Part shown: piece by piece, positions 31,909-35,700 of the stretch
Numbering within the stretch: the first letter of the stretch is position 1
Layout of the letters: each line of letters starts with the position of its first letter
DNA from: an uncultured Bacteroidales bacterium
Lineage (GTDB): Bacteria > Bacteroidota > Bacteroidia > Bacteroidales > Muribaculaceae
DNA length: 64,000 nt
Direction of reading: 5' to 3'
Assembly: GCA_902779125.1 (NCBI GenBank)
Contig: CACZAC010000018.1
Span: 1-64,000 of the forward strand
Program-made: the position numbers and the translations under genes
The notes under the pieces: generated by a model
Told to the model about the DNA's origin: nothing
Seen by the model: only the letters and a program-made list of their open reading frames with translations
Database searches by the model: none

Positions 31909-33528
31909 ATGAAGCAGAAGTCCACACGTCAACCCATCTGGTTACCCCTCGCCATAGCTCTGGCGGTGGTGGTGGGCATCTTTATCGGCAGCCGATTCAC
32001 CGTCAACAAACCCGTTGCCGAGAACGACCGTAAACTCAATGCCATCCTCAACCTCATTGCTCAGGACTATGTTGATACGACCAATCTCAAGGACCTCATC
32101 GAAATGAGTATCCCCGAGATACTGAGCAATCTGGACCCACACACAAGTTATTTCAGTGTAGAAGACCTGAAAGCTGCGACCGATGACCTGAACGGGTCGT
32201 TCAGCGGCATCGGCATCTCGTTCGTCATGGTAAATGACACCATCGGCGTTGTTGAAGTCATACCCGGTGGTCCAAGCGAGAAAGTGGGCATCATGGCTGG
32301 CGACAAAATCGTCATGATTGACGATTCGGTGGCTACAGGTCCTAAAATGAGTAATGGTGAAGTGATGAAACGCCTGCGTGGCAACAAGGGCAGTAAAGTC
32401 AAACTGGGCATCAAGCGCCAGAATACAAGCAAATTGCTCACGTTCACCGTAACACGTGGCGACATTCCTATCAACACTGTGGACGCCTACTACATGATTG
32501 ACAAAAACACAGGCTACATTAAAATCAACCAGTTCGGACGCCATACCTACGATGAATTCATTACCGCCATGGCAAGCCTTGAAGACGAAGGCGCCAAGCG
32601 ATATATAATAGACCTGCGAGGCAACGGAGGCGGTTTTATGGAGATGGCCGTGCTCATGGTCAACGAGTTCCTGCCTGCCGACCAGCCCATCGTGTTCACC
32701 AAGGGGCGCTACAAGCGCGATGACAGTGAAGTGTGGAGTGACGGCAACGGCTCATTCCAGGATGCCGAGGTGGCAGTGCTTATCGACGAGTTCAGCGCCA
32801 GCGCCAGTGAGATTTTTGCAGGTGCCATGCAAGACAACGACCGAGGTCTGATTGTTGGATGCCGTTCGTTTGGCAAGGGACTGGTTCAGAAGGAGTTTGT
32901 ACTGCCTGACAGCAGTGCCATCCGCTTGACCACTGCACGTTATTATACGCCCAGCGGCCGCTGCATCCAGAAGGATTACAAGGAAGGGATGCTCAACTAT
33001 GAGAAAGAACTCATCGACCGCTATACCCATGGTGAGCTTTACAGCCGCGACAGCATGAAGGTGGATAAGAGCCAGGTCTTCACCACAACTCATGGCCGAA
33101 CGGTATATGGCGGCGGTGGCATTGTCCCTGATATCTTTGTCGCCCGCGACACCAGCGGCATCACCAACTATTATATCGAAGTCGCTAACGCCGGACTGCT
33201 GCAGCGCTATGCCTTTAACTACTGCAACAACCACCGTGACGCGCTCAACAAGATGGAGGACTACAACCAGTTCCTGAGAACGGCTCCCAGTGATGATGCC
33301 CTGACCAAGGACTTTGCCGACTATGCTGCGGCTAACGGCATTGCTCCACGCTGGTACTACATCAACCTGTCACAGAACGTGATTGTCACCAATCTCAAGG
33401 CTCTGATTGCCCGTGACACCTTCGGCAACCAAGCGTTCTATCCCATCATTAACCGTAATGACAATACTGTTCAGGCCGCCCTCAAGGCCATGAACAAGCA
33501 CAAGGCAGCCTTTCCCATTACCGACTAA
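31909..33528 (+). CDS. S41-family carboxyl-terminal processing protease, copy 1
   Basis: 539 residues. An N-terminal membrane anchor (about 8-28) is followed by a PDZ domain (GIGISFVMVNDTIGVVEVIPGGPSEKVGI...) and an S41 protease core. The catalytic Ser lies in SASASEIFAGA and the Lys in SFGKGLVQ. It acts in the periplasm on C-terminal tails of proteins, as CtpA/Prc do. Copy 2 follows after 18 bp with the same length. Confidence 0.92.
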   Translation: MKQKSTRQPIWLPLAIALAVVVGIFIGSRFTVNKPVAENDRKLNAILNLIAQDYVDTTNLKDLIEMSIPEILSNLDPHTSYFSVEDLKAATDDLNGSFSGIGISFVMVNDTIGVVEVIPGGPSEKVGIMAGDKIVMIDDSVATGPKMSNGEVMKRLRGNKGSKVKLGIKRQNTSKLLTFTVTRGDIPINTVDAYYMIDKNTGYIKINQFGRHTYDEFITAMASLEDEGAKRYIIDLRGNGGGFMEMAVLMVNEFLPADQPIVFTKGRYKRDDSEVWSDGNGSFQDAEVAVLIDEFSASASEIFAGAMQDNDRGLIVGCRSFGKGLVQKEFVLPDSSAIRLTTARYYTPSGRCIQKDYKEGMLNYEKELIDRYTHGELYSRDSMKVDKSQVFTTTHGRTVYGGGGIVPDIFVARDTSGITNYYIEVANAGLLQRYAFNYCNNHRDALNKMEDYNQFLRTAPSDDALTKDFADYAAANGIAPRWYYINLSQNVIVTNLKALIARDTFGNQAFYPIINRNDNTVQAALKAMNKHKAAFPITD

Positions 33529-33546
33529 GTAACACGACTGGCAACA

Positions 33547-35166
33547 ATGAAAAGAAATCTGCCCATCTGGCTTACAATCGCCATCGCTCTGATAGCGTTT
33601 GCGGCAGGCTTTATCATTGACCGTCATTACATGAATTACTCTTCAAGACATGATGTCAACGACCCCAAGGTGAAAGCCATTCTCGACCTCATCACAGAGG
33701 AGTATGTGGATACTTTGAACTTTGATGAACTCATAGAGAGGAGCATCCCGTTGATTCTGAGAGGACTTGACCCCCACACCAGTTATTTCGATGCCCAAAA
33801 TTCCAAGATTTCACGGAATCATCCCGATGGGGTCATTCCTGACATCGGTGCTGTCCTCATCATCTTCAACGATACGATTCATGTTGAATGTATTGTTCCC
33901 GCTGGTCCAAGTGATATAGCCGGCATCCTGCCAGGTGACTGTATCGTGAAGATTGACGGGCAACCAACCGACAACATCAAGAAAAACTCAGGTGAGGTCT
34001 TCAAACTCTTGAGCGGACCCAATGGCAGCAAGGTCACGTTGAGCGTGCAACGCCATGGCTACCCCAAAGTTCTTGACTTTACAGTGACACGCAACAGGAT
34101 TGTAAAGAAAACCCTTGATTCCTACTACATGCTTGACAAGAACACGGGATATATCAAGGTCAACCAGTTTGAACGCAACACTTATAAAGAATTTGAGCAG
34201 GCTTTAACCCAACTGAAAGACCAAGGCGCCAAGCGCTTCATGATAGACCTAAGAGGCAATGGCGGAGGCTATATGGAAATTGCGGTGCTCATGGCTAACG
34301 AGTTCTTGTCTGAAGGTCAACCGATAGTCACCACACGCGGCAGGCGCAAGAAGTACAATCATCCATACAAGAGTGACGGAAAAGGGAAATTCCAGAATGT
34401 CGAACTTGCAGTCCTTATCGACGAATACAGCGCCAGCGCCAGTGAGATCTTTGCAGGCGCTCTCCAGGATAATGACCGTGCTCTCATCGTGGGTCGTCGC
34501 TCCTTTGGAAAGGGTTTGGTGCAGAATGACTTCATCCTCTCTGACAGCAGTATTATCCGACTTGCTGTAGCACGCTACTATACCCCAAGCGGCCGCTGCA
34601 TCCAAAAGAACTACAAGCATCAAGAGACCCGCTACTATGATGATGAACTGCTGGAACGTTTCAAACACGGCGAACTCTACAACAGGGACAGCCTCAGGAT
34701 TGACAAGAACCAGGTATTCACTACGCTGCACGGCCGAACGGTCTATGGCGGTGGCGGCATCATCCCCGACATCTTTGTTGCGCGAGACACGGCAGGAATT
34801 ACCAATTACTACATTGATGTTGAAAATGCCGGTCTGTTACAGCGTTTTGCCTTTACCTATTGCGAGAAAAACCGCGCGACCCTTGAGCAGATGAGCGACT
34901 ACAAGCAATTCTTGCGTACGACGCCTATCGATAATGATATTGTCAAAGAATTTGCCGAATTTGCCGCAGCCTACGGCATAGCTCCGCGATGGTTCTACAT
35001 CAACCAGTCCCGTAATCTGATTTTAACCAAGATTAAGGCAATCATCGCCCACGATATCTTTGGTCCAGAGGGCTATTCCTTCATCGTAAACCGCAACGAT
35101 AACACTGTTCAGGCTGCCCTCAAGGCATTAAGCAGGCACAAAGCCGCGTTCCCGATTACCGAATAA
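33547..35166 (+). CDS. S41-family carboxyl-terminal processing protease, copy 2
   Basis: 539 residues, collinear with the preceding gene over its whole length, so a tandem duplication. Anchor, PDZ, Ser (SASASEIFAGA) and Lys (SFGKGLVQ) are all kept, so both copies look active. The PDZ carboxylate-binding loop differs most (GIGISFVM in copy 1, DIGAVLII here), suggesting different substrate tails. The two are separated by only 18 bp and are probably co-expressed. Confidence 0.92.
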   Translation: MKRNLPIWLTIAIALIAFAAGFIIDRHYMNYSSRHDVNDPKVKAILDLITEEYVDTLNFDELIERSIPLILRGLDPHTSYFDAQNSKISRNHPDGVIPDIGAVLIIFNDTIHVECIVPAGPSDIAGILPGDCIVKIDGQPTDNIKKNSGEVFKLLSGPNGSKVTLSVQRHGYPKVLDFTVTRNRIVKKTLDSYYMLDKNTGYIKVNQFERNTYKEFEQALTQLKDQGAKRFMIDLRGNGGGYMEIAVLMANEFLSEGQPIVTTRGRRKKYNHPYKSDGKGKFQNVELAVLIDEYSASASEIFAGALQDNDRALIVGRRSFGKGLVQNDFILSDSSIIRLAVARYYTPSGRCIQKNYKHQETRYYDDELLERFKHGELYNRDSLRIDKNQVFTTLHGRTVYGGGGIIPDIFVARDTAGITNYYIDVENAGLLQRFAFTYCEKNRATLEQMSDYKQFLRTTPIDNDIVKEFAEFAAAYGIAPRWFYINQSRNLILTKIKAIIAHDIFGPEGYSFIVNRNDNTVQAALKALSRHKAAFPITE

Positions 35167-35308
35167 ACCGCGCTTTAACTGCGACCATTTCACCACCAGA
35201 AACAATAAAATGATTGTCAATGAGGGTACTTATTCCATGACTACATACCCAAGCCAGAGACAGTGAAATTGACAGATATCTCTATAATTAATTATTAGTG
35301 TCCCTTAA

Positions 35309-35581
35309 AACATCGTAGATGTTAGCGGTTCGAAGAACCGATTTCAATGTGAAAGACCATGCAAGAACCTCGTAGGGGTTCGCAGCTTGGTCCCTGAACG
35401 AGATGGGAACGTGCCTCGAAGAGGAACTTTATGATTTCCTGGCATTTTGCAATTGCAAAAGTTCATCTTCGATGCACTATTCACTGGTTATCATGGTCAC
35501 CAAGCTACGCCCATCTTCGATGGGCTTGCATGGTGTTTCACACAAAGTCGGGCCTTCGACCCGCCTTGTCTCTCCGAGACA
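35309..35581. repeat. Inverted pair of four-hairpin units with GNA triloops
   Basis: Plus-strand unit (35309-35430) and minus-strand unit (35581-35458) flank the 16-bp palindrome TTTTGCAATTGCAAAA (35445-35460). Each holds four hairpins in the same order. Plus: 35309-35323 GTA, 35326-35340 GAA, 35365-35381 GTA, 35414-35424 GAA. Minus: 35581-35567 GGA, 35563-35549 GAA, 35525-35509 GAA, 35474-35464 GAA. Every loop is GNA closed by C-G. Shared unpaired words are TGTGAAA, ACCATGCAAG and AGCTTGGT. Stem sequences differ between units but pair in both. No gene is seen; 35167-35308 and 35582-35700 show nothing else. Confidence 0.85.
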
Positions 35582-35700
35582 TAAAACCAAGTCCCCAAAT
35601 CGGCAATTTCTAATAACTGATTTATTTCCAATTAATTAAACATGATGCTGCTTTTTTACCAGACACCAATAATAATCAATTTGGATTAGGACACAGTTAT

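Follow-up and report, generated by a model that had tools for sequence, protein, structure and literature searches.

For IS608 and ISDra2 it is established that subterminal DNA hairpins are recognised, and in IS608-type elements the hairpins of the left and right ends are distinct and lie on one strand. Hairpins with C(GNA)G triloops form very stable loops in DNA. In REP/BIME (REPIN)-RAYT systems (REPtrons) a Y1/HUH gene lies between inverted palindromic units, and the E. coli class 2 enzyme is described as requiring for its activity a stem with a bulge as well as the GTAG foot of REP (PMC8266576). The survey that defined TnpA-Y1 subclass 1.2 (Quentin et al. 2018, PMC6006769) characterizes its proteins by a Y---Q--HH motif, a size of ~148 aa and a DH[IV]H HuH motif. 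It describes them as "generally" devoid of typical IS200 terminal structures, and the REP entry for the subclass in its table is "no". No REP for subclass 1.2 is reported in that survey or in the open-licence literature searched. The function of the subclass had thus been open, because the defining survey reported neither IS properties nor REPs (PMC6006769).

The window analysed here is a stretch of 64,000 nucleotides from an uncultured Bacteroidales bacterium (Muribaculaceae; contig CACZAC010000018.1) that holds two inverted units of ~130 nt, each composed of four hairpins (Table 1). Our main reading, to which we assign a probability of roughly 80%, is that subclass 1.2 transposases act on the unit as a compound, REP-like ssDNA substrate and that the window copy last moved within an element bounded by terminal inverted repeats (TIRs). 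The inverted four-hairpin pair, the shared linker words and the 16-bp palindrome given in a preliminary description are all present in the sequence. The core hairpin of unit 1 features a mismatch and an asymmetric internal loop beneath H3. A scan for hairpins with C(GNA)G or C(TNC)G loops (stem of at least 4, at most one G.T) identified seven in the 273-nt feature and a maximum of three per stretch elsewhere (mean 0.08 over 1275 stretches, those overlapping the feature being counted). The eighth hairpin (35549-35563) has its wobble beneath the closing pair on the unit strand, which reads C.A on the + strand. For positions 35290-35600 the DNA fold has a z of -8.9.

Table 1. Features of the inserted unit pair and of its target site (window coordinates).
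Feature	Position	Strand	Basis
Left target-site duplication ATAATTAAT	35284-35292		8/9 identical to 35672-35680
379-bp MITE-like insert with TIRs, both units inside	35293-35671		Copies, empty site
Left TIR ATTAGTGTCC	35294-35303	+	
Four-hairpin unit 1	35306-35441	+	Covariance model R1, 120 bits; among the 26 model-building units
H1 of unit 1, AACATC-GTA-GATGTT	35309-35323	+	Pair counts, hairpin scan
H2 of unit 1, CGGTTC-GAA-GAACCG	35326-35340	+	Pair counts, hairpin scan
Foot tetranucleotide GAAA, directly 5' of the core; possible guide	35351-35354	+	
Core hairpin of unit 1, GACCA-T-GC-AA-G-[H3]-C-GCA-GC-T-TGGTC	35355-35392	+	RNAalifold consensus, pair counts
H3 of unit 1, GAACCTC-GTA-GGGGTTC	35365-35381	+	Pair counts, hairpin scan
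H4 of unit 1, GT-G-CCTC-GAA-GAGG-A-AC	35411-35427	+	Pair counts, hairpin scan
16-bp palindrome TTTTGCAATTGCAAAA, between the two units	35445-35460		Sequence
Four-hairpin unit 2	35447-35584	-	R1, 125 bits; also a model-building unit
H4 of unit 2	35461-35477	-	Pair counts, hairpin scan
Core hairpin of unit 2 (CACCA...TGGTG), H3 at 35509-35525	35498-35535	-	RNAalifold consensus, pair counts, scan
H2 of unit 2, one wobble pair	35549-35563	-	Pair counts; missed by the strict scan
H1 of unit 2	35567-35581	-	Hairpin scan
Right TIR AGACACCAAT	35661-35670	-	
Right target-site duplication ATAATCAAT	35672-35680		Sequence

The order of elements in the unit family is H1, H2, linker, core, variable spacer and H4. 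The core consensus, [S]ACCA-T-GC-AA-G-H3-C-GCA-GC-T-TGGT[S], comprises a T.T mismatch, an AA/GCA internal loop and the H3 cap; the 26 sequences divide equally, 13 and 13, between G-C and C-G as the outermost pair. These 26 diverse units bear out the earlier claim that folding rather than sequence has been kept: both-side changes are found in 22 of 31 pairs and 91.9% of the cells are paired, the cells with both-side changes numbering 136 against 48.6 in shuffles and 13-29 when the partners are slid. The core words are invariant in this alignment by construction, since the search for most members relied on them (24 of the 26 were picked up by exact core words); this does not apply to the covarying stems. 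Eight of 32 cluster representatives (L084, L093, L102, L105, L108, L121, L163, L175) were left out for missing or changed hairpins, a tandem array or chance matches, a choice that favours structure somewhat. GNA loops, said to occupy all hairpins, do so in the window and not throughout the family, where they are found on the unit strand in 18 (H1), 23 (H2), 17 (H3) and 24 (H4) of the 26 units.

Strong covariation of the stems is also what would be seen if the units acted as RNA, in the form of 3'-end structures, terminators or regulatory elements whose conservation is at the transcript level. The stable fold of the - strand RNA (z -7.0) and a mild bias of the upstream gene to be co-directional with the unit (42/65, p=0.025) point the same way. 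This explanation is improbable: wobble pairs make up only 3% of the paired cells (22/727), the triloops are of the type known for very stable DNA loops, and Rfam gave nothing relevant at gathering or permissive thresholds. Also against it are the presence or absence of units between relatives and a unit polarity that is set by the Y1 gene and opposite on its two sides (see below).

Variants of the unit were observed as well. Four units of the window's genome (L227-L230, at C6:117215, C9:119912, C80:4002 and C23:80888) have in common an insert of ~65 nt between the 5' core strand and H3, which contains GCTAAACTTGTTTA-GCTTTACCGA, similar to a repeat at L103 and L108. Same-strand tandem arrays of units, as opposed to the usual inverted pairs, are found at L102:4024-4374 (period of 102 nt) and L237:1880-2180.

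The insert that carries the unit pair in the window is larger than first reported, namely 35293-35671 (379 bp) plus a target duplication; the duplication and the TIRs around this copy are not in the preliminary description. As in MITEs, it is TIR-bounded, flanked by a target duplication, multi-copy and ORF-free (no ORF of at least 80 aa in the ORF list). Near full-length copies are found at C50 (94%) and at G036:C13 (90%). A comparison of the locus between the S41 protease and 3D-domain genes, suggested earlier, revealed an empty site in 13 of the 16 relatives examined (16 loci read, out of 27 relatives matching the neighbouring gene), the S41 side being without alignment in the remaining three. 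The distance from the 3D-domain gene to the S41 protease gene is 6-30 bp in those 13 relatives versus 520-544 bp in the window, the aligned gap exceeding the insert length because the flanking intergenic DNA differs too. Target duplications like that of the window were read by eye, without scoring against chance, at L024, L051 and L054, and a clear one was not seen by eye at L022. TIR-like ends are present on both sides of all five unit pairs examined in the window's genome; of 20 unit pairs scanned by a script, 9 showed a TIR pair, the script's pattern missing the window copy itself. The TIRs and target duplication of the element that contains the window copy make a different, DDE-type transposase the probable agent of that copy's last move. 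Beside the insertion are two adjacent, clearly similar 539-aa ORFs (31909-33528 and 33547-35166), both named as S41-type protease in the preliminary description.

Further copies of the unit, with compensatory changes, were found as had been proposed. The window's genome (3.35 Mb, 97 contigs, assembly 91% complete; the genomes surveyed are metagenome assemblies) contains 27 units according to the covariance model (E<=0.01), which the two window units helped to build, and 17 distinct related places according to DNA comparison (E below 1e-5). By DNA, relatives are detected in 26 of 36 genomes of the same genus versus 1 of 24 from other families of the order. When named species genomes were scanned with a pattern, at least 116 stretches were obtained, all but three titled with Bacteroidales-type names; the exceptions are two chance matches and one "bacterium UBA1790". 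The order-wide model search was positive in 3 of 393 genomes, a figure that understates distant relatives because of strict filters and few scored candidates (8 per genome among the rows listed). The pattern matches L196 and L197 on viral contigs, in which the hairpins are missing, and L121 and L175 were taken as chance.

Dispersed gene-less copies occur both singly and as inverted dimers. Single units are found in elements with a second type of end, GGGTGTGTCATAATTC; of 18 such units, 10 have both ends recognised. In 3 of the 17 loci examined (of 30 retrieved), a lone unit that shows no recognisable TIRs lies upstream of a gene that we take to be asd-like. The occurrence of units inside differing ends, or without recognisable ends, identifies the TIR elements as carriers of the units. 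As many units of the window's genome sit in TIR elements, much of the spread may nevertheless be DDE transposition.

Some neighbouring repeats deserve mention. An element of ~200 bp with GGGTGTGTCATAATTC ends and a single unit has many similar copies (L109, L117, L166, L190 and others, in the DGVT01 and JAGAYZ genomes). Upstream of the asd-like gene, the copy number of the H2-H1 module differs between close relatives at L358 and L359, L364 having one. A short unit-less repeat with ATTAGTGTCC-type ends is found in the window's genome at L055, L058, L060, L061 and L064 (C4, C23, C26, C31, C48). L061 is bounded on both sides by AAGAAAGAT, hence one transposase may move several unrelated elements.

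The association with a gene is seen in the distant genome G376, where a 149-aa Y1_Tnp ORF (PF01797, E 3.7e-21) lies between two inverted units. Of 101 genomes in the window's genus, 79 have a homologue of its product (E<=1e-10), with 1-7 matches per positive genome that are mostly mutually diverged among those listed with identity. The gene regions studied comprise 58 that were chosen by hand, nonrandomly, among the homologue matches listed (nine of them for already known adjacent units) and 30 automatic loci; they are assigned to groups A-G, which are our own labels. R1 matches of 64-127 bits flank 26 of the 27 group A genes on both sides, inverted and with H4 facing the gene, while the 27th has one side cut by a contig end. 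The link to HUH/REP-type transposases that the preliminary description had suggested is thereby found; readings of the unit as attC, retron or guide RNA were given up in favour of this link. R1 matches are likewise present on both sides of 9 of 12 group B genes (26-58 bits), 4 of 5 in group C, 1 of 2 in group D and the G376 gene. The cores diverge by group, those of B, C, D and G376 being of the CCCCAYGGCGC, ACACATTGTGC, GCCCCAGG and CACCACACT types, with the same layout by eye. Groups F (34 rows) and G (8 rows) gave no R1 match at E<=0.001; their units were identified by visual reading of eight loci.

A model-free comparison of the upstream flank with the reverse complement of the downstream flank gave inverted repeats exceeding all 30 shuffles in 85/85 testable rows versus 3/51 control genes. 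These rows represent 82 distinct loci, three group F loci being counted twice (L279-L281 are L242, L245 and L240), and they omit three F loci and one A locus whose flanks are too short. Direct similarity of the flanks also exceeds shuffles in 47 of the 85 rows, as expected from palindromic or tandem units. Of the two Cytophagales genes tested for inverted flanks, one is positive. GNA loops are on the expected strand in 105/110 cases in groups A-E and 36/47 in group F. In group G direct repeats score above inverted ones (median 182 vs 45), perfect hairpins number 1.1 per locus versus 0.84 in controls, and GNA loops are absent. Hairpins of the GCCCC...GGGGC form recur in the flanks of the group G loci read (L300, L302, L304, L316 and relatives); group G is perhaps a REP system of its own.

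The tetranucleotide foot of the core in groups A-C is N-N-A-[A/G], position -2 being A and position -1 being A or G in 71/71 distinct units (found by core pattern at loci L270-L327). These groups do not regularly have a GT[AG]G foot; some group F cores have, by eye, a GTAG or GTAA foot.

The units could alternatively be internal cargo of MITEs mobilised by DDE transposases, with the Y1 loci incidental. The TIRs and duplications that surround unit pairs, and the GGGTGTGTCATAATTC ends around single units, are what such an origin would leave, but it does not account for the inverted two-sided units, with H4 facing the gene, at nearly all group A genes examined and at most of those in groups B and C. 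It is further weakened by the presence of TIR-like ends on both sides at only 1 of 25 group A gene loci (chance 3/500), and by the occurrence of one unit type with different ends and without recognisable ends. We consider it unlikely, and favour a unit that belongs to the Y1 system and is at times carried by TIR elements.

The proteins encoded between the units display Y---Q--HH in 88/89 rows, the exception, L264, being cut by a stop codon. They have 146-151 aa (~148), the cut L264 excepted, and H53, H55, Y113, Q117, H120 and H121 are invariant in 52 aligned sequences. D-H-[IVL]-H is found in 43/89 rows, the exact HuH fit being in groups E-G; the 46 rows of groups A-D do not match it and read N-H-[IV]-H among the rows listed. 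The predicted structure (pLDDT 91) matches in Foldseek the ISDra2 and IS608 TnpA proteins, with the E. coli RAYT-REP complex 4er8 at rank 30. In the protein tree the deepest split is strongly supported (100/98 on both sides), group A is unresolved, and B emerges within A with L312, which has A-type units, at the base of B. By their motif and size, rather than by a joint tree, the proteins are provisionally filed under TnpA-Y1 subclass 1.2.

Both the fold and the Y---Q motif are as in IS200 TnpA, and the loci might for this reason be taken as ordinary IS200/IS605 insertion sequences with the units as their ends. However, each arm repeats the other in inverted orientation, whereas the ends of IS608-type elements are distinct, the few matches per genome are mostly mutually diverged among those listed with identity, and the gene locus is syntenic: for 13 of 18 compared group A loci, both flanks align to a single locus in the window's genome, where one unit is found and the gene is absent. 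Ordinary insertion sequences are thus the least probable of the explanations considered, and very improbable; the syntenic gene locus resembles REPtrons rather than insertion sequences.

The number of units per genome has a median of 14 (4-66, n=21) with a group A gene and of 1 (0-26, n=17) without (p=3.7e-6), in a comparison of hand-chosen genomes where absence of the gene was judged from the homologue search; G376 was searched and excluded from the test. No subclass 1.2 gene was detected in the window's genome at E<=1e-10, a point absent from the preliminary description, yet this genome has its 27 units (26 at the comparison threshold), and G036 has 11, likewise without a detected gene. Both may be cases of gene loss, which in the window's genome is supported by the orthologous gene locus, where a lone unit is present and the gene is missing.

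Three other Y1-like genes of the window's genome, found with the Pfam model, were rejected as partners, as none has an R1 match. Two are without a perfect GNA hairpin in the stretches scanned; one such hairpin occurs twice at the third, which scores below the Pfam cut-off. A 266-aa Y1 protein with YIHQNP is encoded at L201:1115-1915 (C40); this is the motif listed for Bacteroidetes subclass 2.6. A lone group B-like unit is present at L231 (C27:8638-8777) in this genome without a detected subclass 1.2 gene and is perhaps a relic of a second lost system.

In the mechanism that we propose the four-hairpin unit would be the ssDNA recognition element of a TnpA-Y1 (HUH, one-tyrosine) subclass 1.2 transposase, encoded in a REPtron-like locus where the gene sits between two inverted units, each with H4 facing it. 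The unit would fold when the DNA is single-stranded, for example in the lagging-strand template. The preliminary description had connected an ssDNA role with a transposase; that connection is supported by the units flanking Y1/HUH genes, the single-stranded state being putative. The enzyme would bind the core hairpin through the foot, ending in A then A/G, and the stem with its mismatch and internal loop, by analogy with the foot and interrupted stem of E. coli REP, and would cut and rejoin the strand near this hairpin. The C(GNA)G hairpins H1, H2 and H4 may impose on the adjacent single strand a shape that is defined and specific to the strand. Dispersed units would be non-autonomous products of Y1 activity, which may have spread single units. 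In the window, a gene-less BIME-like unit pair would have become cargo of the ~379-bp TIR element, inserted last by another transposase with a 9-bp target duplication.

A broader proposal, which we regard as evenly balanced, is that subclass 1.2 enzymes across Bacteroidales act on a previously unrecognised compound ssDNA fold whose architecture is kept while its sequence diverges with the enzyme. Such enzymes would form a second REP system, built independently within the IS200 (class 1) side of the family, in which a multi-hairpin fold replaces the GTAG guide as a sensor of strand and shape. A candidate substrate matched to each group makes the role of subclass 1.2 testable by a simple binding or cleavage assay, and the many natural enzyme/substrate pairs with strong compensatory variation offer a route to the recognition code. 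The main reading also explains a large repeat family of rumen-type Bacteroidales and provides natural cases of very stable C(GNA)G DNA hairpins that are apparently under selection.

Compared with known systems, the loci are most like the REPtrons in having a Y1/HUH gene between inverted palindromic units, dispersed gene-less copies that are single or in inverted pairs, an interrupted hairpin with a foot tetranucleotide, one unit type per gene group and a stable single locus. They differ in the unit, of ~130 nt and four hairpins in place of the 20-40 nt and one hairpin of REP, in the lack of a regular GT[AG]G foot in groups A-C, and in the protein, which is Y---Q--HH (class 1) whereas TnpA-REP is Y---NP (class 2). 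With subclass 1.2, as presented in its survey (PMC6006769), they share Y---Q--HH, ~148 aa, low copy number and occurrence in Bacteroidetes; unlike the subclass as surveyed there (REP "no"), inverted compound units flank the genes, and groups A-D lack the D of its HuH motif while groups E-G read D-H-[IVL]-H. The HUH fold (Foldseek) is that of IS200/IS605 (IS608, ISDra2), from which the inverted arms of one type and the syntenic locus set these loci apart. The window copy as a whole is like MITEs, short, TIR-bounded, gene-less and with a target duplication, but unlike them its contents are a structured unit common to elements with different ends and also found without recognisable ends.
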